A model generated the notes under the pieces. That model worked only from the letters and a program-made list of their open reading frames with translations. It was not told where the DNA came from and searched no databases. Shown here piece by piece: positions 17 to 49,180 of a stretch of DNA of 64,000 nt. The position numbers were made by a program, and so were the translations under genes. The first letter of the stretch is position 1, and the number at the start of each line of letters is the position of its first letter. The DNA is from Vitis vinifera (lineage: Eukaryota > Streptophyta > Magnoliopsida > Vitales > Vitaceae): positions 4,045,001 through 4,109,000 of the forward strand of contig NC_081821.1 in NCBI RefSeq assembly GCF_030704535.1, in the 5' to 3' direction.

Positions 17-3000
17 TTCTCTGTGGTCTCTGATGCTTTAGATTGAGCAGGGCCATTATTTTCTGTTCGCATAGGAAAACCACCATCAGATGTATCACTT
101 GATCTCTCGTCACAATCTGTCTCCCCAAATCCTAAGGTCGAAGCATCTGCAGGATTATTCTGACCTATGTCCCCACCGGCAAGCTTTGATTTCCGAAGGG
201 ATTCATTTGGTTGTTTAAAGTCTTCCATGGACTGCTGGGAATCAGCATCAGAATGCTTATCACTGTATTCTGAACTGTTGTCCTGATCAGAAGCTGCTCT
301 CTCAGCTGGTCCTAAGCCTTTCCCACCTGGTAGTTTCTGGCTTAGTTGAGCAGTCCCACCCACGAAATTCCTGCTTGGTGGGGAAGATCCATACTTAAAC
401 GAACCTGTAACACTTCTCTCACAGTTGAGACCAGGATGTACATTTTTGAGATCTTTAAGTAGTTGCAACCGTTCGATCTCCTCATCTTTTTTGGCAATTG
501 TGTCTTTGAGAGATGCCACCTGCAGGATCAATAAGGTATTTAGAAAACAAGGAACTACCAGTGCCTTGAAAGATGATTACTAGTTTTGATGTTTAACTAA
601 AATTGAAATGAGTAAACAAGCAGGTATATTCGGTATGAAAAGACCTAGATGGAAATCAGATGATAGAAAATCCACCTTTTCACATGTGCACATATATCAG
701 TAATCAATCAAAAAGGAGTTCTAATGTATATAAACAAAAGAACAGGGTACAGTGTATTGCAAGAGCACAGTACAGGGCGTTCAAGACCGTCTTTGAATGC
801 ACCTCAATATGATCACTAGACTCCAAAGCTCAAGAAAAATGGTGTCCCTCCTCTTAAGCATATAGCTCCAGTTAAGTGATAAATAGAAAAATGCAAAAAG
901 CACATACCTCTCCCAAGTGTTTTCAAATATCTCTTTCTTTTCATCTCCAAGTGTTCCTATATTCCTTCTTGTTTTGTGTATGTACCATGTATACACATAA
1001 AGATATATTTGTGTATTCTGTTTTCAAAACCAAAAGCCAAAAACATTATCCCCTCATTTCCTTATAGCAAAGGGTCAATAATCTCGAACTTATTTTTTCA
1101 CCTTCTAAAACATTGGTGTGGAGGTGACAAAAGCAGGGTCCACAAGGACTCATTTGTAAAGCAAATCAATTATCTATGACAATTTTCCTCCTAGTAAATT
1201 GTTGTTGAACATATGAAAGCAGTAGCCCCTAGAAATCAACTGATATTTTATGTAACCATGTGACCCGACAACTAGAGGAGTAAGATCTCATACATCCTCA
1301 GCAATTATTTTGAGATGAATGTCTGGAATTAAAACACAGTCCCTATTCTGAACGTAAGCTGAATTGGATAATAACTGAAAGATTGATTGATCGCTCTGCA
1401 AGTTAAGAAAGAGCAAGGGAAAAGGAAAACAAAAAAAAGAAAAAAAAGATCTTGAGGTCCACTGAGAAATTAGACCTACTCAACTACTTGAGTAAACCTT
1501 ATATATTTCTATAGTGCTTGCAATACGTCTTGAAAAGCATAAAATTCTATTTAGCACCATGGCTAGTAAATATTCAACAAACTGCTACTTAAATGAATAT
1601 GAGAACCTGATCCATTAATTCCTTAACGTCCCTGCCCTCTTTGCTACTCCGTGCAGCACCTAGCTCGACTCCAGAAACCCTCTCAGCAAATTTCAAAGTA
1701 CTTGCAGTTTCAGAAAATGAATTCACATCAGGATTAAGCTGCACAAACATAAGAGTCTTTGCTTGACCACCTGTAGTTTATAAAGTAGAAAATAAAAATC
1801 CGCTATATGAAGTTCAAAAAGAGGACTATTGGGAGCTAAGGAAATAATTTAGAGTCCTGACGAAACAATAAGACAGGTGAAGGGATTTATTGCTAAAAGC
1901 AACTGGAAAACAGTGAAGTACCAAGAGAACTCTGAAGGACTTGAGTAAGCTTGCTGTTTCTGTATGGTACATGAGAGCTCTTCTGGGCAAGAGCAAAGAT
2001 AACATCTCCAAGGGCAGATAGCGATTTGTTTATATGTTGTGCTTCCCTAAGTCTCTCTCCAGTTACCTCAGAGCGATCTACCCTTTCACTTCCTGCAAGA
2101 TCCACCAAGTGAAGACTGCCACGCAAAGAAGCACCAGTCTTCAAATCCGTCCCCCAAGCATGAATAGTTACAATACTGCAATAACACATCTAAGTGAAGA
2201 TCATAACATGTAGAACATATACAGTCTGAAGATGGTAATATCTAAAAATGAAATGACAACCTGTGGGAGCGGCTACTTCTTTCATTCATAGCAGTGGCAC
2301 CTACAGATCTATTCTTTTGTCCAATGTCCATTAATTCCATTACATCTGAGGTTGATTTGACTGGGAGCATGGTAGCATCAGGAACAGCTAACCCATGGGG
2401 CTGAGAGGTAGTCAAAATCCCAAGTGTGTGCAAATTAAGGAAAACAAAGGATTTCATGCCAAAACACATGAAAACTATTTTTCACTTAATCAAACCCAAG
2501 AAGAAAAAGGCCAAGATGCAGAATTAACAAAGATTTCAAAGAGAATTATACCACACCAGACAGATAAATCTGGAAAAATCTAGAAATGTAACTGGAAGAT
2601 TATAGAGAAATGTTTTATGACAGTTATCTGTCAGACAAAAACTAGTCAATGGATTAGGCAGAACAACTCAAAGCGAAAACAGAAGATGAAAATGAATAGA
2701 GAAGGATATCCTTTTTACATCTTTATGCCAAAGAATGAAAATGAATAGAGAAGGATATTTTTTTTGAGAACTATCACTTGATAGTAAATCACGCACTTGT
2801 TCATTGTATATTTCAACCATTTGAACTCCAATTTCATACATAAATGAGCTTCTCCTGCTTTGAGTGATCTCAAAGAGGTCACTTAGTGCACGATAATTGA
2901 CACCCCATTCCTCCTTGGATGCTGCATTGGGGCCAGTCTAGAGGAAAGACAATACATTACACAAGTTTTTATTGAAAATATCAACACATATGCCATGTAG

Positions 3001-6000
3001 ACTAAAACATATACAAGTTCATACCATTGTGTATGTCTTGCCCGAACCAGTTTGACCATAAGCAAATATACATACATTATAGCCATCAAGAACAGATCGT
3101 ACCAAGGGTTGAGTGTCAGAAAACACCTCAGCTACAAACATTTTCCAAGCATAATATGAGTCAAGCATTATAATGATTTCTTGAAAGAGATCTATTCAAG
3201 GATCCAAATTATAAAATATAAGGATGAAAAACCTTGAGTAGCAGCTGGGCCATAGACCTTATTGAATTTGAACAACCGATGACTGTCTTTTCCTTGTTTT
3301 GAGGGATTCACAATACCGAGCTCCCCATCTTCACCAATATATTCTATGGTTGTCTGCTTTCCATTCTGCCCACGGAGAAATGGCCTTATCCGGCAATACA
3401 CCCTAATGTTTCCTATCCAAGAAATACATGCATCAGCCAAAAGATGCATTCATATAAAACTAGTCGTGATTCCAACAGAGTTAAATTGGGCATGGAACCT
3501 TTTAAATCTTGAACCTCATTATAAAGTCTCCTATTTTCAGCAAGAACTGCATGATAGTTTTCAGAGGCATCTACTAATGCTTTTAGCTTTACTCCTGAAC
3601 AACAGAAAAATCGATCTATGAGAACATGCTACATAAATTTATATAGAATCAGGAGAACTTTGTAGTAACCAACCTCACCTAAGCATTTAAAATCCTCTGA
3701 ATAGCTCTTCTGTGTTTCCAATACTTCTTTCTTGATGGACTCGGAAGTGGACCTCAATCCCTGATTGTTTATTCAAAGTTCCAGTATAAAACATGAGCAT
3801 TAAATAGTATAGTTTGAAAGGTCAAGATCAATTTGGTTAAAGCGGACCTGCAAGGCACTGAATAGAAAATTCACAAGTCTCAGGTAGCTTTGCTCTTTCT
3901 TATCCCACCTTTGGCCTTCTAACCCAGAATAAGCCTCAAGTTTATTTATCTTATTCCTTGAATCGGCTAGGAGCTGCTCAAGTTCCCTTGACCTCTTCTC
4001 AAACTCTGCTTTATCTCCCATACCTTGCTTTTCCATTTCTGAGAAATGTTCTTCATATGTCTTCCTGGCTATTTCCAGTTCTTGCTTCAGAGCAGTAATT
4101 TCGATATTATTTTGATCCTTCTCTTTGTTGGCTATTTCAAGTTCTTGCTTCAAAGCTGAAATTTCAATGCCACTTTGATCCTTCTTCTTCTTGGCCATTT
4201 CCAGTTCTTGCCTCAGAACCAAAATTTTAGAATCATTTGGATCCTTCTCTTTCTTCCTTGCTATTTCCAGTTCTTGCTTTAAAGCTGAAAGTTCCAGATG
4301 GTATTGCTCCTTCTCTTTCTTCCGGGCCATTTCCATTTCTTGCTTCAGAGAAGAAATTTCAAGATTTGTGTCATCCTTCTCTTTTATCAGTCTAGCCATA
4401 TCCTCCTCAAGCTTCTTCTTGTCTTCCACATTGGCCTTTTTAGTCTGAAATAAAAAGAAATAAAATTAAAGACTTCAAAGGTATCCATACAACCAAGAAA
4501 GCAATATTATTTTTTCTCAGGCAAACAAAATATGCACCATGTCATCTCAAGCAACTGATCAACAATTGCAGCAAATTAAGAATAGAATCAATTGTGAATA
4601 CGCCTTCCACTTCCATCATGAAAGGAGAAATTTGATATATCAGTGGGCAGTCAAACCTCACTATTTCCATCCTCATCTTTAACATCATTTAACTTTTGAT
4701 TCTTAATGAACACAAATCAAGGATATCAAACATATTAAAGTGGTTGAAAATTGTGAAAAGAAACACCAGAATCCAGTAAATGAAGGAAGAAGCATTGAGG
4801 GAAGGAGAGGATACCACAGGACTCAAGATTTTTTTTTTTTTTATAACCGAAGAACCTTCCATGGCTAAGCCCTTAGGACTCTCCATGGGAACTCAAACCT
4901 CGGGGTGCTAACCACCCCACAACAACCAGCACCGGGTAAATTCAGAGTATCATCCATAGTAGGATTCAAACCCAGGACCATGTGCAACTTACTAGGACCA
5001 CACTTCCCAATGTTCGCCCTAACCAACTAGGCTATCCTGGCAGGGACCATAGGACTCACATATCTGGCTGCACATGTTTTCATGTAATGTTAACTAAAAT
5101 TTTACTAAATCTTAGACTACCTAAAAGTTGTTTTATGAATCCTTTGTTTTAGGTGCAACAAATTGAACAATTATGGGAAGCAAAAAGCAAAAAATACACA
5201 TCGGTATATTTTGGAACAGAGAATAGTCCCTAAAGGATATCAGATACAGGATGTTTGAAGTAAAAGATGAATAACATAAAAGAGACTTTCTAATATCTCA
5301 ATTAAGAAAAATGCTCACAGATTATAGCCATACCTTTATCTGCTGGAGATGATTCAATACAATCTGCAGCAAATAATTTCATTTGGTGAATCCAGTAGTT
5401 GTACCAAATAAACAAAAAGGCAAACCTGACAATTTAGAATCTTTCAATACAACATATTTGAAGTACCTGGTTTTCATCATTAGTCCCAGTTGCAAGGGTT
5501 TCAAGTACTCTGATTCTCGACTGGTATTTCTCTTCCCGAGACTTAAAGAGATTGTTTTGCTGCAGGCACAAACCAATAGAAAAGAATTGATATGGACTAG
5601 ACAATAAAAACCAATAAAAGAAACAAAGTAAGTATATTACAGTTCTTAAGTGTTCTGCTTGAGTTGATATTCGCCGCTCAATTTCCTGCACAACTTTTCT
5701 CAATAGACATGCCACACGCTGAGGAAAAAAAAACAAAAAATAAAAAGCATCCTCAGATAAGTTTTTTAGCATTAAAAATGCATTTATATTATCAATATAT
5801 ATATATATATATATATATGCCTTAATTTAACACCAGTTGCCCTCTCATTGCCATACGTGAGGTATCTCTTCATTCTTCCTTTCAACGCTTTCATCTAGAA
5901 TTCCATTCACAACACTCAAAAGTGACTGAGTTGGGGCATTCTGCAAAAATGAGATGCTTGAATGCATTAAAGAAGCATAAAACTGAAAAGACCACCTAAA

Positions 6001-7465
6001 AAATCCTAAATCTTGCCCAATTATGTCCATTGACAACATAAGGTGCCATATGACTTACATCTAAACTGTTAGATTTCATCATTTCTGTAAGCTTAGCAGC
6101 AGGAATATCCGCATAGCGTCCTTGTTTCAGTTGAAACACCTCATGGAACTTGTGTCCCACATGATATATTAATGCAGCTGATGGCTCTACAAAAAGGGGA
6201 AAAAGTAAGATAACAACACTACGTCCAAATAAAATTATCATTATTGAAGAGCATCTGCTAGTTTTGTGTTGTTAGAATACAAAAAAACTATCCACTGTCT
6301 CAATATAGCAGATCTCACTTCACAACTTCACTATGGATAAAAGCTGTTATCATATATTCATATGGCTGCATTAGAACAGACAAGCACATAGAGGAATAGA
6401 GTACAAAAAAACCATACCAGACTTGACAGGACTACGCAAAGCACGTTGAAATTTGGATTCTGAAAAACTCTTTTGCCTGTCTTCTCCACATGGTGTAGGC
6501 CCACGCGAAGGATCATCCACTTGAGGACCAATGTTTCCAGATTTAGAAAATGAACTACTGAATGGAAAATTATTTCCACATACAGTTGGTATAGTGTGTG
6601 CTTTAAGTGTTAAAATGCACTCCAAAACAGTCTTCATAGATCCCTGCAACATAAAATCAACATTATGATAAATGCCGAGAGCTCTGGTGATGCTAAGAAA
6701 ACATATACTCAAATTCATTTGAGCAAATTAATCAAAAAAAAATTTGAAATTCACTACTTCAACTTTGAGATGTTTGCAAATTGCTAAGAAAATAAATGTA
6801 AATAAACCTACAATGACTTCAGTGGGAGTACTACTAGTTTGTGTACATAATGGATAGTAATTCTTATAAACAATTGATAGTAGGTCATGAAAACAATTGA
6901 TACCTTTTCCAGGTCTGCAATTTCAAACCCGGGCATCCCTAATGCGTCCAAAGCCTCCAGAAACTTTTTAACATTTTCATAGCGCATCCCAGAAGAATGA
7001 TCATAATCACGCACCTAAAGTAAAAAAAAAATGCACATCAAAACAACAATTCTAACATCCAGAGATGAAATTCAACACTAACTGCATCTAAATGAACAAA
7101 CCTCACTCACAGAACCAGGTCTCAGTCTGTTCAAAAACCGACATAAAACAGCACCATCAATCAAGCAGGCCCTCAATTCCTCTACTGAAGCTTTTACTGG
7201 CAAATTTAAATTAGGAAGCATGGAATTTAACCACTCCGCCACAATGGCTCGCTTCTTGTCTGCATAAAAGGGAATGAAATAAATACAAAGTTCAGTAAAT
7301 TAAGATGGGAAAAACAAAGGAAGAGAGGAGCAAAATCACCCTTTCTTCACCTTTATCATCAGCATTATGAGTTGCCATTGGTTCAAAAACATCCCCATTA
7401 CCAGATACTCTGAAACTGCCAATTCCCCCATATTTCTTTGCGTTGTAATCCAATGTAGAGTCCAT
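17..7465 (-). CDS. KIN14F: KIN-14 kinesin with calponin-homology domain (3' end cut by window)
   Basis: Minus-end-directed microtubule motor of the plant KIN-14 (KCH/KP1) group. Exons, minus strand: 7465-7351, 7259-7102, 7014-6904, 6643-6418, 6186-6059, 5940-5857, 5718-5641, 5559-5467, 5363-5334, about 4701/4692-4657, 4444-3848, 3760-3679, 3594-3499, 3412-3233, 3131-3025, 2937-2759, 2425-2261, 2175-1922, 1770-1607, 519-17. Phases join without a break and give about 1128 residues before the window edge; the final exon ends at a GTGAGT donor, so at least one exon lies outside. Order seen: N-terminal CH domain ([16 protein letters not shown], then [14 protein letters not shown]), coiled coil, neck, then central motor starting [11 protein letters not shown] with P-loop GQTGSGKT, switch I NERSSRSH, switch II DLAGSE and [11 protein letters not shown]. 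The C-terminal tail is Ser/Asp-rich. The start at 7465 precedes the CH domain. The 10th exon's acceptor is ambiguous by 9 nt. The LGIL...AVPDAT stretch most resembles KP1 (KIN-14F) from memory, so the symbol is tentative while the family is secure. Confidence 0.9.
2426..2758 (-). other. Probable U12-type AT-AC intron in the kinesin motor domain
   Basis: No AG acceptor exists where the motor-domain exon must begin. Reading the minus strand, the intron starts ATATCCTTC (2758-2750), close to the minor-spliceosome 5' consensus ATATCCTT. It has TTCCTTAAT at 2442-2434, which fits the U12 branch consensus TTCCTTRAY, and it ends in AC (2427-2426) about 9-10 nt beyond the branch adenosine. Joining 2759 to 2425 restores the frame (SSQKK-LGIL) and the expected motor sequence. 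It lies between the exon ending in VRDLL and the exon carrying the AVPDAT and switch I region. Confidence 0.85.
2686..2758. repeat. 24-bp perfect direct repeat duplicating the U12 5' splice site
   Basis: Positions 2686-2709 and 2735-2758 are identical over 24 bp with a 49-bp period. Each copy contains the ATATCCTTC donor on the minus strand, so the intron has a second potential donor at 2709. Confidence 0.9.
4037..4357 (-). repeat. Coding tandem repeat, five 21-22 residue coiled-coil units in kinesin stalk
   Basis: Inside exon 4444-3848 the protein repeats a unit of the form (I/L)[16 protein letters not shown] five times: two units of 22 residues followed by three of 21. A 21-residue unit is exactly three heptads; the 22-residue units add a skip residue. 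The repeat is evident in DNA too (recurrent ttccagttcttgc on the plus strand). It probably arose by local tandem duplication. Confidence 0.85.
4830..5045 (-). mobile_element. tRNA-derived SINE in a kinesin intron
   Basis: On the minus strand the element begins at about 5045 with an A-box-like TAGCCTAGTTGG, followed by a B-box GGTTTGAATCC, the RNA polymerase III internal promoter pair. It ends in an A-tract (plus-strand T run 4829-4842). Flanks carry an imperfect target duplication: accacaggactca at 4813-4825 and accataggactca at 5046-5058. It is about 216 bp and sits in the intron between exons 5363-5334 and 4701-4657, same strand as the gene. Confidence 0.85.
5796..5818. repeat. (AT)n microsatellite in kinesin intron
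   Basis: About eleven AT dinucleotides in the intron between exons 5940-5857 and 5718-5641. Confidence 0.9.
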
Positions 7466-11187: not shown

Positions 11188-14100
11188 TTAGAAGATGCTA
11201 TCCTTTATGTTTCCACCAGTAAGCAGACTGAAAAAAGGATCTTCCTTGTTTTCATTGTCACTTTTGATTTCCTCAACAGGGAAAAAGGGTGTGGTAGCTG
11301 CTGATACTGTAGGTCTCTTCACGGAGACAAAAGCCACTTTATTGCTTGAATCAAATTTACGTTTTAAAGGATTTGAACTCGGAAATGAGCTTGTGTGTGG
11401 AAGCAAGCCTTGTTCTGGGAGGAGATTCTCAATAGAGGATCCTTCAACTTCTGAACCATTGCTAACTTGCACACTATCTTCAACCCGCTTCCCATCATCA
11501 CTTTCAAGGGAAGGATTCACCAGTAGAGATTTGTCCTCACTGACCAGAGTTGGACCCTCTTCTGAACTGTGGAGCATGTCTGTCTTCTTGGAGCCAAGTT
11601 CATCATCTACACAAAAGACAAATGTTACAGAACTGGGCAAGAGAAATAGTAGCACCAGAATACAAAGCAACAGCAAGAAACCAGAGGTTAAGGCAGCTGC
11701 AAATAAATTATGAGAATTGGAAATACTCATTTGCAGCATGCTAGCTTGTTTAGCAACAAAATATATAAAACTAGCACCAAAAATCCAATTGACAAGCCTC
11801 GAGGAAATTTTCCATCCAGTCAAAGTGTCCAAGTTGCAGGAAATCAATAGCTTCAGCATAACAACAGGGCTCTGTTGTTTCAAGAATAAATGTTAACTTC
11901 CTAAACGTCTCAAATGGAACCCAACACAGCATCATGCCTCTGGAAGCAACTTTTCATAGCCTCCAGAAAAGTGAGCTCAAGCTTGAATTCAAGAGGACGA
12001 AATTGAATCTTCAGCTATAAACTAAAACATGATGTAGCTCACTTTAGCTTCTGTCAAGTCTATGTCTAAAGTAAATCATCATATGTCTGAGGATTAAATA
12101 GATGGTTAAACAGGAAAATTGAATCATTTTTTACCCTAATGAATATTCTTGATCATGAAATAGATGGAACCATTCTTATCCAATGGTCATTGGTAATGTA
12201 TCTGACATTAATCAGTACTTATAAAAATATGATAGAATAAGTAAAAATGTTGAATATAATGTATTTATAGTATATTATCTTTCCTTGTTAATATAGGTCA
12301 CATGTATGGTAGTTAGGACTCCTAGCCTTGTATATATATATATCTCAATTGTAAGTAGACATTACATGAATGAGAATTAAGGTTTTTCTCCTTTCTCTCT
12401 CTCTCTTTCAACATGGTATCAGAGCCAAGGAAGAAAACCTAATTCTTTCCTGTTTCCCGTGTCATCAACTCCGGGAAACCTTCCGGTGACTGTGTTTCTT
12501 TCCGGTCACCCTCCCCATCTCCCAACACTTTCCGGTCAGTCGGATCATCGTTAGAAACCACTCACCGCCGGCAAAATTTTCCGGCAAATTTTCCGGCGAA
12601 CTTTCCCGGCGACCTATTTTTCCGACACTGACCATACCAGAAGGAGCGCCTGGAGGAGATCTCCAACTTTTGTGAAGGCACCAGCATCAAAAGAGGATCC
12701 ACGCGCCGGCGACTGCATCTCACGCGCCGGCGACTGCATCTCACGCGCCGGCGCGTGAGGGCGCGTGAGGCCTTTTCCGGCGACGCGCCTCCTCCTCCAG
12801 CCTCGCCTGCCGCCGACCAGCATCCCTACCTACCTGGTTCTCCCATCCGAGCCCTGCACGTACCTCTTTTGGGGATTTTTGTCTCCGTCAGCCCTCCAAA
12901 CAACCTTTCCGGCGAAGTTCCGGCTACTTTCTCTCCACCCCAATCCCTGCACGTGCCTTGGGAAGTGTTCATCTACCTTTCTGGTGGTACCACGTCGCGA
13001 TCTGAGGCCGTCTCCCTTTTTCGGTGGTGCCACGCCGCAATCTGAAGCCGTATTAGGGCTCTCTTCGATCCAAATACGTGAATATGACCACCAAAAATCA
13101 GATCTTTACCTCTGTTATCTCTGGATCTCCTATGATTACCTCAGAGAAATTGGTTGGCAGTGAAAATTATCTTTCCTGGTCTGCCTCTGTTGAACTTTGG
13201 TTTATGGGTCAAGGATATGAGGATCACTTGGTTTCCCAGGAGGCAGATATCCCTGAGGTTGACCGCGTACAGTGGAGGAAGATAGATGCACAGTTATGTA
13301 GTGTATTATGGCAATCGGTTGATCCCCGGATTCTTCTTCATCTTCAGGCCTATAAAACTTGTTTTAAATTTTGGACTCAAGCCAAAGGATTATACACGAA
13401 TGATATCCAGCGTCTTTATAAGGTGGCTTCTGCTATTGTCCATCTCAGCCAACAGGACTTGGATCTATCTACTTATATTGGTCAGATTGCCTCTCTTAAG
13501 GAGCAGTTCTTGACTGTGATGCCTCTTACTCCTGATGTTGGGGCTCAACAAACACAGCTTGACAAGTTCTTCATGGTCCTTACTCTTATTGGCCTCCGTC
13601 CGGATCTTGAGCCTATTCGTGATCAGATTCTTGGTAGTTCATCAGTTCCGTCCTTGGATGATGTGTTTGCTCGCCTCCTCCGTATCTCGTCCACTCAGAC
13701 TTTGCCATCTGATAGCGCTTCAGATTCTTCTGTGTTAGTTTCTCAAACTACCTCTCGAGGAGGACGCAGTGGTACCCGAGGTAGAGGCCAACGTCCTCAT
13801 TGCACCTATTGCAATAAACTTGGCCACACTCGCGATCGTTGCTATCAGTTACATGGAAGACCTCCTCGCACTGCCCATATGGCCCAGTCCTCTGATTCTC
13901 CGCTGCCTCAGCCTCCGAGCTCCTCCGCATCTCAGACATCTCAGGCTTCTATTGCCTCTGTTGCCCAGCCTGGTAATGCCTCTGCCTGCCTTACCCACAC
14001 ATCTTCTCTTGGACCCTGGATTCTAGATTCTGGAGCATCTGATCACCTATCTGGTAATAAAGATATTTTCTCCTCTATTACTACTACCTCTGATTTACCT

Positions 14101-17100
14101 ACTGTTACTTTAGCTAATGGTTCTCAAACTGTGGCTAAAGGTATTGGTTTGGCCCTTCCTCTGCCTTCTCTACCTCTCACTTCTGTCCTTTATACTCCTG
14201 AATGTCCTTTTAATCTTATTTCCATCAGCAAAATCACTCGTACTCTTAATTGTTCTATTACCTTTTCTGATAAATTTGTGACCTTGCAGGACCAGAGTAC
14301 GGGGAAGACGATTGGCATAGGACGTGAGTCTCAAGGCCTCTATCACCTCACCTCAGATTCATCTCCTGCAGTTTGCATTTCCACTGATGCTCCTCTCCTC
14401 ATTCACAATCGTCTGGGCCACCCTAGTCTCTCCAAGTTCCAGAAGATGGTTCCTCGTTTTTCCACTTTGTCGTCGCTTCCGTGTGAGTCATGTCAGCTTG
14501 GGAAACATACTCGTGTCTCGTTCCCAAAGCGTTTGAATAATCGGGCAAAGTCTCCTTTTGAGCTTGTCCACACTGATGTTTAGGGTCCTTGTCGGACTGC
14601 GTTTACTTTAAGATTTCAGTATTTTGTCACTTTCATTGATGACTATTCTCGATGTACTTGGTTATTTTTAATGAAAAATCGAGCTGAGTTATTTTCTATT
14701 TTCCAGAAATTTTATACTGAAATCCAAACCCAGTTCAATATTTCTATTCGTGTGTTACGCAGTGACAATGCCAAGGAATATTTTTCAGCCCAATTTACTT
14801 CGTTTATGTCTCATCATGGGATTCTTCATCAGTCTTCTTGTGCTCATACTCCTCAACAAAATGGGGTAGCTGAACGCAAGAATCGACATCTTGTTGAGAC
14901 AGCTCGTACTCTCCTCCTCTATAGTCACGTTCCTTTTCGTTTTTGGGGGGACGCTGTTCTTACCGCTTGTTATTTGATTAATCGTATGCCCTCCTCTGTC
15001 TTACACGATCAGATTCCTCACTCCCTTCTTTTCCCTGACCAACCACTTTATTTCCTTCCTCCTCGTGTCTTTGGTTGTACTTGCTTTGTTCATATTCTCA
15101 CTCCTGGACAGGACAAGCTTTCCGCCAAAGCCATGAAGTGCCTCTTCTTGGGATATTCCAGACTTCAGAAGGGTTATCGTTGCTATTCCCTTGAGACTCA
15201 TCGATACTTTATCTCCGCTGATGTCACCTTCTTTGAGGACTCACCATTCTTTTCCACCACTTCTGAGTCTCTTCCTGTTTCTGAAGTCTTGCCCATTCCC
15301 ATTGTCTTCCCACCTGATGCTATGCCCCCTCGACCACTTCAGGTTTATCATCGTCGCCCTCGTGTCGTTGCTCCTCTCCCTTTTCCTGAGGCACCTGCTG
15401 ACTCACTTCCTATCCCTTCGACTTCACCTGCCCCGGCTCTGCCTTCTCCTAATGACTTACCCATTGCTGTTCGAAAAGGTACTCGCTCTACTCGTAATCC
15501 TCATCCTATTTACAATTTTTTGAGTTATCATCGATTATCTTCACCCTATTCTGCTTTTGTTTCTGCTATATCCTCTGTTTCTCTTCCAAAGAGCACCCAT
15601 GAAGCTCTTTCCCATCCAGGCTGGCGACAGGCAATGGTGGATGAAATGGCTGCTCTGCACTCTAATGGCACTTGGGATCTTGTTGTTTTACCCTCTGGTA
15701 AATCTACAGTTGGTTGTCGTTGGGTTTATGCAGTTAAGGTTGGTCCTGATGGTCAGGTTGATCGCCTTAAGGCCCGCTTAGTTGCTAAAGGCTATACTCA
15801 AGTTTATGGTTCTGATTATGGTGACACATTCTCACCTGTTGCCAAGATTGCTTCTGTCCGCTTGCTTCTCTCCATGGCTGCTATGTGTTCTTGGCCTCTT
15901 TATCAGTTGGATATTAAAAATGCCTTCCTTCATGGTGATCTTGCCGAGGAAGTTTATATGGAGCAACCTCCTGGTTTTGTTGCTCAGGGGGAGTCTGGTT
16001 TAGTGTGCAGGTTACGCCGTTCTCTATATGGCTTGAAACAATCTCCTCGAGCATGGTTTAGCCGTTTTAGTTCTGTTGTTCAAGAGTTTGGCATGCTTCG
16101 CAGTACAGCAGACCATTCAGTTTTTTATCATCATAACTCCTTGGGGCAGTGTATTTATCTGGTTGTTTATGTGGACGACATCGTCATTACAGGCAGTGAT
16201 CAGGATGGTATTCAGAAACTAAAGCAACATCTTTTTACCCACTTTCAGACCAAAGACTTGGGGAAACTCAAGTATTTCTTGGGAATTGAGATAGCTCAAT
16301 CCAGTTCTGGTGTGGTCCTTTCCCAAAGGAAGTATGCTTTAGACATCCTGGAAGAAACCGGTATGTTAGACTGTAAACCGGTAGACACACCTATGGATCC
16401 GAATGTCAAACTTGTACCAGGACAGGGGGAGCCTTTAGGAGACCCTGGGAGATATCGACGGCTCGTAGGTAAATTGAACTATCTCACCATTACTCGTCCA
16501 GACATTTCTTTTCCTGTGAGTGTTGTTAGTCAATTCCTACAGTCACCATGTGATAGCCATTGGGATGCCGTAATCCGTATTCTTCGATATATCAAAAGTA
16601 CACCAAGCCAAGGTGTATTGTACGAGAACAGAGGTCATACTCAAGTTGTTGGTTACACAGATGCAGATTGGGCTGGCTCACCCACAGATAGACGTTCCAC
16701 TTCAGGGTACTGTGTTTTTATTGGAGGTAATCTAATATCTTGGAAGAGTAAGAAACAAGATGTAGTGGCCAGATCTAGCGCTGAAGCCGAGTATCGAGCT
16801 ATGGCTTTGGCAACATGTGAACTCATATGGTTGAGACATCTTCTTCAGGAGTTGAGATTTGGAAAGGATGAACAGATGAAACTCATCTGTGATAACCAGG
16901 CCGCATTACATATTGCATCCAATCCAGTCTTTCATGAAAGGACCAAGCATATTGAAGTTGACTGTCATTTCATTAGAGAGAAGATCGCATCAGGATGTGT
17001 TGCTACAAGTTTTGTCAATTCAAATGATCAACTAGCAGACATCTTTACTAAATCTCTCAGAGGCCCTAGGATTAAATATATTTGTAACAAGCTTGGTGCA

Positions 17101-17298
17101 TATGACGTATATGCTCCAGCTTGAGGGGGAGTGTTGAATATAATGTATTTATAGTATATTATCTTTCCTTGTTAATATAGGTCACATGTATGGTAGTTAA
17201 GACTCCTAGCCTTGTATATATATATATATCTCAATTGTAAGTAGACATTACATGAATGAGAATTAAGGTTTTTCTCCTTTCTCTCTCTCTCTTTCAAC

Positions 17299-47100: not shown

Positions 47101-48954
47101 GATTAAATCCCACATTGTCTCCAAAGTCCTCCATTTGTCCTAAAAGATCCTTACATTTCTCTCCTGCTATGTAGTCCAAATTAATGTGAGACTAGCAGCA
47201 TCACACCACAATGACTTCTCTAAAGGGTGATTTCCAAAACTGCTTGTGCTTTCCTCATTAGGGAAATTGGGTTTAAAAAGAAAAAAAAAAAAGAACCCTT
47301 TTAATGATTCAGGAGGCTTTTGCATGATTATCACTTCTTTTTTCTTCACTTATCAACAATTCTGTTATTTTTAATCAATTAGCAAAGAGATCTATTATAA
47401 AAAAGCAGAAGTTGATTTCTGAATATGCAAGGAATTTGTTAAATTTGTTGATATCAATCTTTATCCATATTTGGACTGATGTAAGGGCTAATTGGTCCCA
47501 CACTATGGTTTACTAGTGCATGAGACATGAAAAAATTAGGCCTGATGAAAGAACATAAATAAGTTGTGCTTTCTTTCTGCAGGTGACTGAAATGGCCATC
47601 TGGTAATTGCTTAAAGCAGAGGGATATTGGAACCTGCCTATTTATCAGTTTAGTTTCTTTGCTGTTAATTGTCTTATGCTTCAATGGTTTTCCCTTCATT
47701 CTTGTTATATCCAGATGCCGGATGTTATTGGCATTGGTTTGGATGTTAGATCTTTTTGCTTGTTAGCATCCAGAAACTGATAATGATTTGAACCAAGGCA
47801 ATGAATCCAAAGATATCCTCTATGAAATAAGTTACAACTTGTGATTTGTTCCTTGTTGATAATGAATGGCATCTTTTATGCAATGTTTGTTTTCTAATAA
47901 ATGCATTGCTGGACATGATTGTGTCAGAATTGTCAAAGCATTTTTTTTGTTTTAATTTAAGAATTTATTTATTTATTCTGAAACTTGGTCAATTGAAAAT
48001 TTGACTTTGTTCAGGAGTAGGCAGTTTGGGAGGTTTAGGGTCTACAGAACTATGGTAGATGTCTTTTGTGTTCACCCATTCACTGCCAGATGTTTTCCTG
48101 GACTATTTGTTAGACGATGGTAAAAGGAAAAAGAAATGTGATTTTATGCAGTTTTGTTCATTTCAAATGCCAAATACAAAGTATTATAGCTTGATACTCC
48201 TCTTTTGCAACTTCTGCTTCGGAACTTGGGAAGCACAAAATAGGTCAACTTATCTGGAGTCTTGCCCTCCACCCCAAACAGACTAAATTCATCCAATTAA
48301 GTGAAGCAAAACAATATCAAATTTAGTGCTTGTAACGTTCTGATTTTTGAAGGCAGTAATGAAACAAGTCTTAGAGACAATAAGAAGTAATGGCCTTTTC
48401 TTGCCCATCTCTTAGGTGCTTTTAATATATTTACTTCTTTGCCTAGGAAAAAAAAAAAAAAAGAAGACAAGAAGTAACATTTATGATTTACCTTTTCAAA
48501 AAGCACTGTGAAGAGTCCTTTTTTTCTTAGTCTTAGGCTCCAAAGTAGGATTAGTGATGCTATTGAGACATGCTGATTGGACACCATCTTAATGATTACA
48601 ATATAGTTGGGACTGTGAAAGCATGGATGATAGGGTTTTTGATTTCATGATGTGGTTTTCTAATGAGACTATAAGAAATCAAGGATGGTAGCTGCTTTCC
48701 TACCTTGAGATATTGTGTGCGCATAGCCACAGCTGGAACCTCTCAAACTCATCACTCTTCACTACTCTTCTTTCCTGGAAAGCAGACAAACTTGAGGAAA
48801 TTAAGGTTAAATGTGTGAAGGAGCAGATTAGTGACAACTAAAATGAAACAACCATAAAAACTAATTAACAGTTATAATGAAAATCCTATCACAGAAATGG
48901 ATAATGACTATAGACCAGGTCTAGAAGGAAACATATATTTCTTGGGAAAACTGA

Positions 48955-49180
48955 GATCTGCCCTGGGAGCTCCCTTCAGTCCAATGAGTGGGCAAAGCGT
49001 GCGGAGGAGTTGCTCCCATGTCATGCATCAGGCTAAACTTAGCATTTGTCACTCCACAGCCATACTCGAACCGAATTGATTGAGAAAAGAATAAGCATAG
49101 CCAAGTGCATGAGATGGCAGCTCTGGCCGCCCCTCAGCCCTCTTTATTGGACTAAAAGGAGCTCTTCAGCTGTTCCCCCA
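48955..49180 (-). ncRNA. MIR319: MIR319 microRNA precursor
   Basis: The minus strand contains TTGGACTGAAGGGAGCTCCC (48984-48965), the exact mature miR319. About 165 nt upstream, GAGCTCCTTTTAGTCCAA (49164-49147) pairs with it along its length using two G:U wobbles. Between them more inverted segments occur (CTCATGCA with TGCATGA, GGGC with GCCC), giving the long stem typical of miR159/319 precursors, which are processed from the loop downward. The mature miRNA is on the 3' arm, as expected. miR319 represses CIN-type TCP transcription factors controlling leaf growth. Position 2 onward distinguishes it from miR159 (which has GGATTGAAGG). Confidence 0.95.
48965..48984 (-). ncRNA. MIR319: Mature miR319
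   Basis: 20-nt sequence on the 3' arm of the hairpin, 5' U at 48984. Confidence 0.95.

Follow-up and report, generated by a model that had tools for sequence, protein, structure and literature searches.

The question raised by this locus is whether the motor domain of a plant kinesin is interrupted by an intron of the AT-AC subtype, of the kind removed by the minor (U12) spliceosome, and how such an intron stands among the related genes of the same plant. The window, i.e., the whole stretch of 64,000 nucleotides of Vitis vinifera DNA analysed here, contains in its first 7.5 kb, on the minus strand, a gene with an N-terminal calponin-homology (CH) domain and a kinesin motor. The relevant features, in window coordinates, are these:

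6593..7263, minus strand: exons of the N-terminal CH domain of this gene (PF00307, 8.3e-14)
1607..3412, minus strand: kinesin motor domain, over six exons (PF00225, 2.2e-110)
2759..2937, minus strand: upstream motor exon of the exon model, ending in ...SSQK plus AA
2426..2758, minus strand: U12-type AT-AC intron, phase 2, 333 nt, placed by coordinates, signals and frame
2750..2758, minus strand: 5' splice site ATATCCTTC (the conserved donor, called donor 1), placed by its motif and by the same codon in paralogues
2434..2442, minus strand: U12-type branch site TTCCTTAAT, with the branch A taken as 2435 (2436 is also possible)
2426..2427, minus strand: terminal AC at the 3' end of the intron (an alternative AC ends at 2428)
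2261..2425, minus strand: downstream motor exon of the exon model, starting A CTT GGG ATT (LGI...)

Host gene, splice signals and reading frame

Joining the six motor exons yields an open frame, and the spliced product gives one continuous match to the Pfam Kinesin model, covering positions 1-325 of 327. It also aligns through the junction under study to solved kinesins, the best of them being KIFC3 (5wde). The CH domain was recognised on exons joined by eye. With both a kinesin motor and an N-terminal CH domain found, the identity supported here is that of a CH-domain KIN-14 gene, which is less specific than the KIN-14F label used in the first-pass annotation. Scans of prokaryote and viral contig collections with the motor protein gave, as expected, no relative. 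Another intron of the gene has two further matches to ATATCCTT, at 5240 and 4726 on the minus strand, that are probably due to chance. A tRNA-derived SINE-like insertion, with A-box-like and B-box-like stretches and an A-rich tail recognised by eye, is also located in an intron of the gene (window ~5040-4830, minus strand). Elsewhere in the window, translations inspected by eye show open frames of a Copia-type retrotransposon at 13057-17124 on the plus strand, and a MIR159 precursor scores 96.5 bits at 48953-49176 on the minus strand.

Motor exon 3 of the six ends at 2759 and motor exon 4 restarts at 2425, exactly where the first-pass annotation had put the boundaries. The donor at 2758, ATATCCTTC, agrees with the pattern ATATCCTT(T/C). 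U12 branch sites have the consensus TTCCTTRAY, and TTCCTTAAT is of this type and lies near the 3' end, with 9 nt from the branch A to the end of the intron. The donor, branch, terminal AC and short branch spacing described in the first-pass annotation are thus all present. With the window roughly modelled as a first-order Markov chain, the chance probability of the donor 9-mer is ~1.9e-5 per position, and that of its combination with a branch motif within a 13-position range is ~1e-8, a rough value that carries no correction for the search made in the first-pass annotation.

We examined the reading frame for pairs of donors and acceptors with exon ends at 2800-2691 and exon starts at 2460-2386. 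From the donor at 2758, the frame is kept by three AC acceptors (exon starts 2425, 2410 and 2407) and by no AG. Of the three, the exon start at 2425 is the only one that retains the residues aligned among paralogues (LGIL...), in phase 2, which bears out the view that the AC junction restores the frame. The companion statement that no AG fits the frame holds for this donor and this range of exon starts, but not in general, since other GT-AG pairs in the tested range keep an open frame at the price of deleting conserved residues. If the intron were retained, translation would reach a stop codon.

The host genome also encodes components of the machinery. Searches above the Rfam cut-offs yielded two U11 loci, two U12 loci and eight U6atac matches; U4atac (RF00618) gave no match, a result of this search that does not imply absence. 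U11 starts with UAAAAGGGU, which can pair with the donor, and U12 includes GUAAGGAAA, which can pair with the branch, under the established pairing rules. In the proposed mechanism U11 would recognise ATATCCTTC and U12 the TTCCTTAAT branch, U6atac would then take the place of U11 at the donor, and the ends 2759 and 2425 would be joined to restore ...SSQK-K-LGIL.... Both the splicing and the pairing of the snRNAs in vivo are what we infer from the sequence, and expression of the motor would likewise depend on minor splicing.

The same codon in the paralogues

The strongest evidence comes from the equivalent junction in related genes of the host genome. The host genome (495.6 Mb in 21 contigs) was searched with a 431-base query around the intron, and the window locus was the single full-length match; the remaining three matches, on C2 and C8, were to exon parts only. 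The paralogue set consisted of 20 kinesin regions plus eight loci, and both exons could be located in 12 KIN-14 genes besides that of the window. CH exons were found in six genes, namely that of the window, L009 (for which the fetched stretch covers the second CH exon only), L010, L011, L016 and L017.

Each of the six CH-domain KIN-14 genes examined, that of the window among them, has a U12 donor at one and the same phase-2 codon, and in each intron a U12-like branch lies 9-11 nt before the end. The donor is ATATCCTTC or ATATCCTTT in five of them and ATATCTTTT in L011, the intron ends in AC in five and in AA in one, and the lengths vary between 100 and 333 nt. The exception in the terminus is L016, a CH-domain KIN-14 gene on C8, with an AT..AA intron after ACAACAAA and the branch TCCTTGAC 11 nt from the end. 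The window gene and L010 have the shortest spacing in this 9-11 nt range, 9 nt, which counts against the U12-type reading.

A different picture emerged for five KIN-14 genes (L012, L013, L014, L015 and L020) that have an unambiguous junction and for which the search gave no CH exon. In 5/5 a GT-AG intron interrupts the same codon, also in phase 2, and in the final 45 nt of these introns the branch search used for the six CH genes had no U12-like hit. The failure to find a CH exon refers to ~6 kb upstream of the junction, and the CH exons of the six CH genes fall within a comparable distance. Outside this comparison of six and five genes are L018 and L021 (GT-AG, phase 2, codon alignment not unique), L019 and L022 (a GT donor, but no acceptor located), L027 (no downstream exon found) and the other fetched kinesin loci, which either were not taken as KIN-14 or gave no hit to the motifs. 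A rough 12-gene tree, built from stitched tblastn pieces that possibly include intron residues, with stop letters omitted and four of 16 genes dropped for short coverage, placed the six AT-A(C/A) genes apart from the six others with a local support of 0.949.

Taken together, the sequence, the frame, the conservation among paralogues and the presence of minor-spliceosome snRNA genes make it almost certain, as far as sequence can tell, that the motor domain of this CH-domain kinesin-14 gene contains a true U12-type AT-AC intron, one common to this plant's CH-domain KIN-14 genes, as the first-pass annotation had proposed for the single gene. The KIN-14 genes for which no CH domain was detected have, at that phase-2 codon, a GT-AG intron devoid of U12 signals, which indicates that the position is old and that the type of intron has switched at least once. 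The AT-AC form is probably ancestral, because as a general rule conversion runs from U12 to U2; its direction here would follow from that rule.

A separate observation concerns L017, the CH-domain KIN-14 gene on C7, of which there are at least seven dispersed fragment copies, intron included (L038-L044, on C2, C2, C13, C11, C1, C9 and C10 of G000). Their main pieces have 91-95% identity to L017 and ~90-97% among themselves, and their flanks are common to the copies and have no match to L017. In four of the seven there is an extra piece of 62-80 bp from within the AT-AC intron of L017. This looks like a gene fragment captured by a mobile element.

A second copy of the donor, and other readings of the intron

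The intron contains a further element that the first-pass annotation did not mention:

2701..2709, minus strand: donor 2, a duplicate ATATCCTTC, 49 nt downstream of donor 1

Donors 1 and 2 are identical at 24/24 nt from +1 and diverge beyond, and a donor match anywhere in the intron 2758-2426 has a chance expectation of ~0.006. The identity over 24 nt points to a short local duplication that placed a copy of the donor 49 nt into the intron. No second copy of the first 12 nt was found in the other five CH-domain KIN-14 introns; those of L010 and L016 have one additional internal ATATCCTT each. Donor 2 together with its upstream bases forms a perfect palindrome, AAGGATATCCTT (window 2713-2702, minus strand). 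RNA folding of the region of the duplicated donor revealed nothing special (z 0.51).

The consequences for the protein differ between acceptors. Donor 2 joined to the exon start at 2425 produces a frameshift that leads to a stop, and joined to the exon start at 2427, with the AC located 2 nt upstream, it leaves the frame open with an insertion of 17 residues, at a site near the motor's loop-8 region. With two identical U12 5' splice sites and one branch point, the choice of donor could switch the motor on or off or between isoforms, donor 1 giving the normal motor and donor 2 either a premature stop or the 17-residue insertion, the latter with the alternative AC. We consider such a switch unlikely.

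The identity of the two donors, and the frame that stays open with the exon start at 2427, could also suggest that the intron is mainly removed from donor 2 at 2709, with either the insertion of 17 residues (AC ending at 2428) or the frameshift (AC ending at 2426) as the usual outcome. This seems quite improbable, as donor 1 is the one that sits at the codon where five paralogues have their donor, the residues that donor 2 would insert are absent from the aligned solved kinesins, and an AC ending at 2428 would be just 7 nt from the branch A. In all likelihood donor 1 serves as the main splice site. Whichever way the minor spliceosome chooses, the duplication offers a natural test of its choice between sites identical from +1 to +24.

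Some AT-AC introns are spliced by the major (U2) spliceosome (PMC2831892), and the one studied here might be thought to belong with these few. The sodium-channel examples given in that source have a G at +5; here there is a C at +5, within a full ATATCCTT, and a U12 branch is present in the intron 2758-2426, so that we regard splicing by the major spliceosome as very improbable. Finally, that the locus is a pseudogene or a misassembly in which the AT-AC signals match by chance is hardly conceivable given the open frame across six motor exons, the one full-length match in the genome, the signals common to six genes and the ~1e-8 of the rough model.

We retain the reading of a U12-type AT-AC intron most likely removed from donor 1. 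Such an intron makes a subfamily of plant motor proteins dependent on the minor spliceosome, if spliced as proposed, and for this reason defects in plant minor splicing should hit the CH-domain kinesins as a group.

Relation to known minor introns

The intron is a well-supported example of a rare but known type, and its extra interest comes from its being kept in six CH genes, with GT-AG in the sister genes, an AT-AA variant and a duplicated donor. Lists of plant U12 introns include kinesins. Our literature search found no report of a U12 or AT-AC intron in kinesin or KIN-14 genes; supplementary lists and most subscription papers are outside its scope, and the intron may well be listed there. 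The word kinesin has no occurrence in the main text of the papers on U12 introns or splice sites that were checked, PMC6865273 included. An alternative 3' splice site common to genes annotated as "kinesin-like protein KIFC3" in four fruit species has been described (PMC8547070), with no tie to the intron 2758-2426 established.

As for rarity, AT-AC accounts for ~0.06% of splice-site pairs as an average over 121 plant genomes (PMC6310983). The first-pass annotation had AT-AC introns as a small part even of the U12 class, which looks too strong: the ratio of GT-AG to AT-AC is 565:204 in U12DB clusters and goes from 3:1 to 1:1 by genome, figures that derive from metazoan genomes (PMC2831892).

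In donor, branch and termini the intron is the same as known U12-type AT-AC introns; what differs is the host, here the plant CH-domain kinesin-14 family, and the duplicated donor of the window copy. The gene itself has the CH domain and kinesin-14 motor of the CH-domain kinesin-14 family of flowering plants, and no difference in domain content was seen from what that source describes (PMC1434745). Gene families rich in minor introns are known. As in the voltage-gated channel families, the intron is common to a paralogous gene family (PMC6865273). A further parallel is found in positions converted from U12 to U2, which make up 87 of the nearly 1000 U12DB clusters, AT-AC being the subtype in 5 of the 79 converted clusters with a single subtype (PMC2831892). 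In those positions, as here, some genes have a U12 intron where others, at an identical codon and phase, have a GT-AG intron lacking U12 signals; the difference is that in the present case the comparison is between paralogues of one genome and involves the AT-AC subtype. The direction of conversion is taken to be nearly always from minor to major (PMC10639083). A single codon that has an AT-AC U12 intron in one branch of KIN-14 and GT-AG introns devoid of U12 signals in the other branches offers a clean within-genome case in which to study conversion of the rarer subtype.
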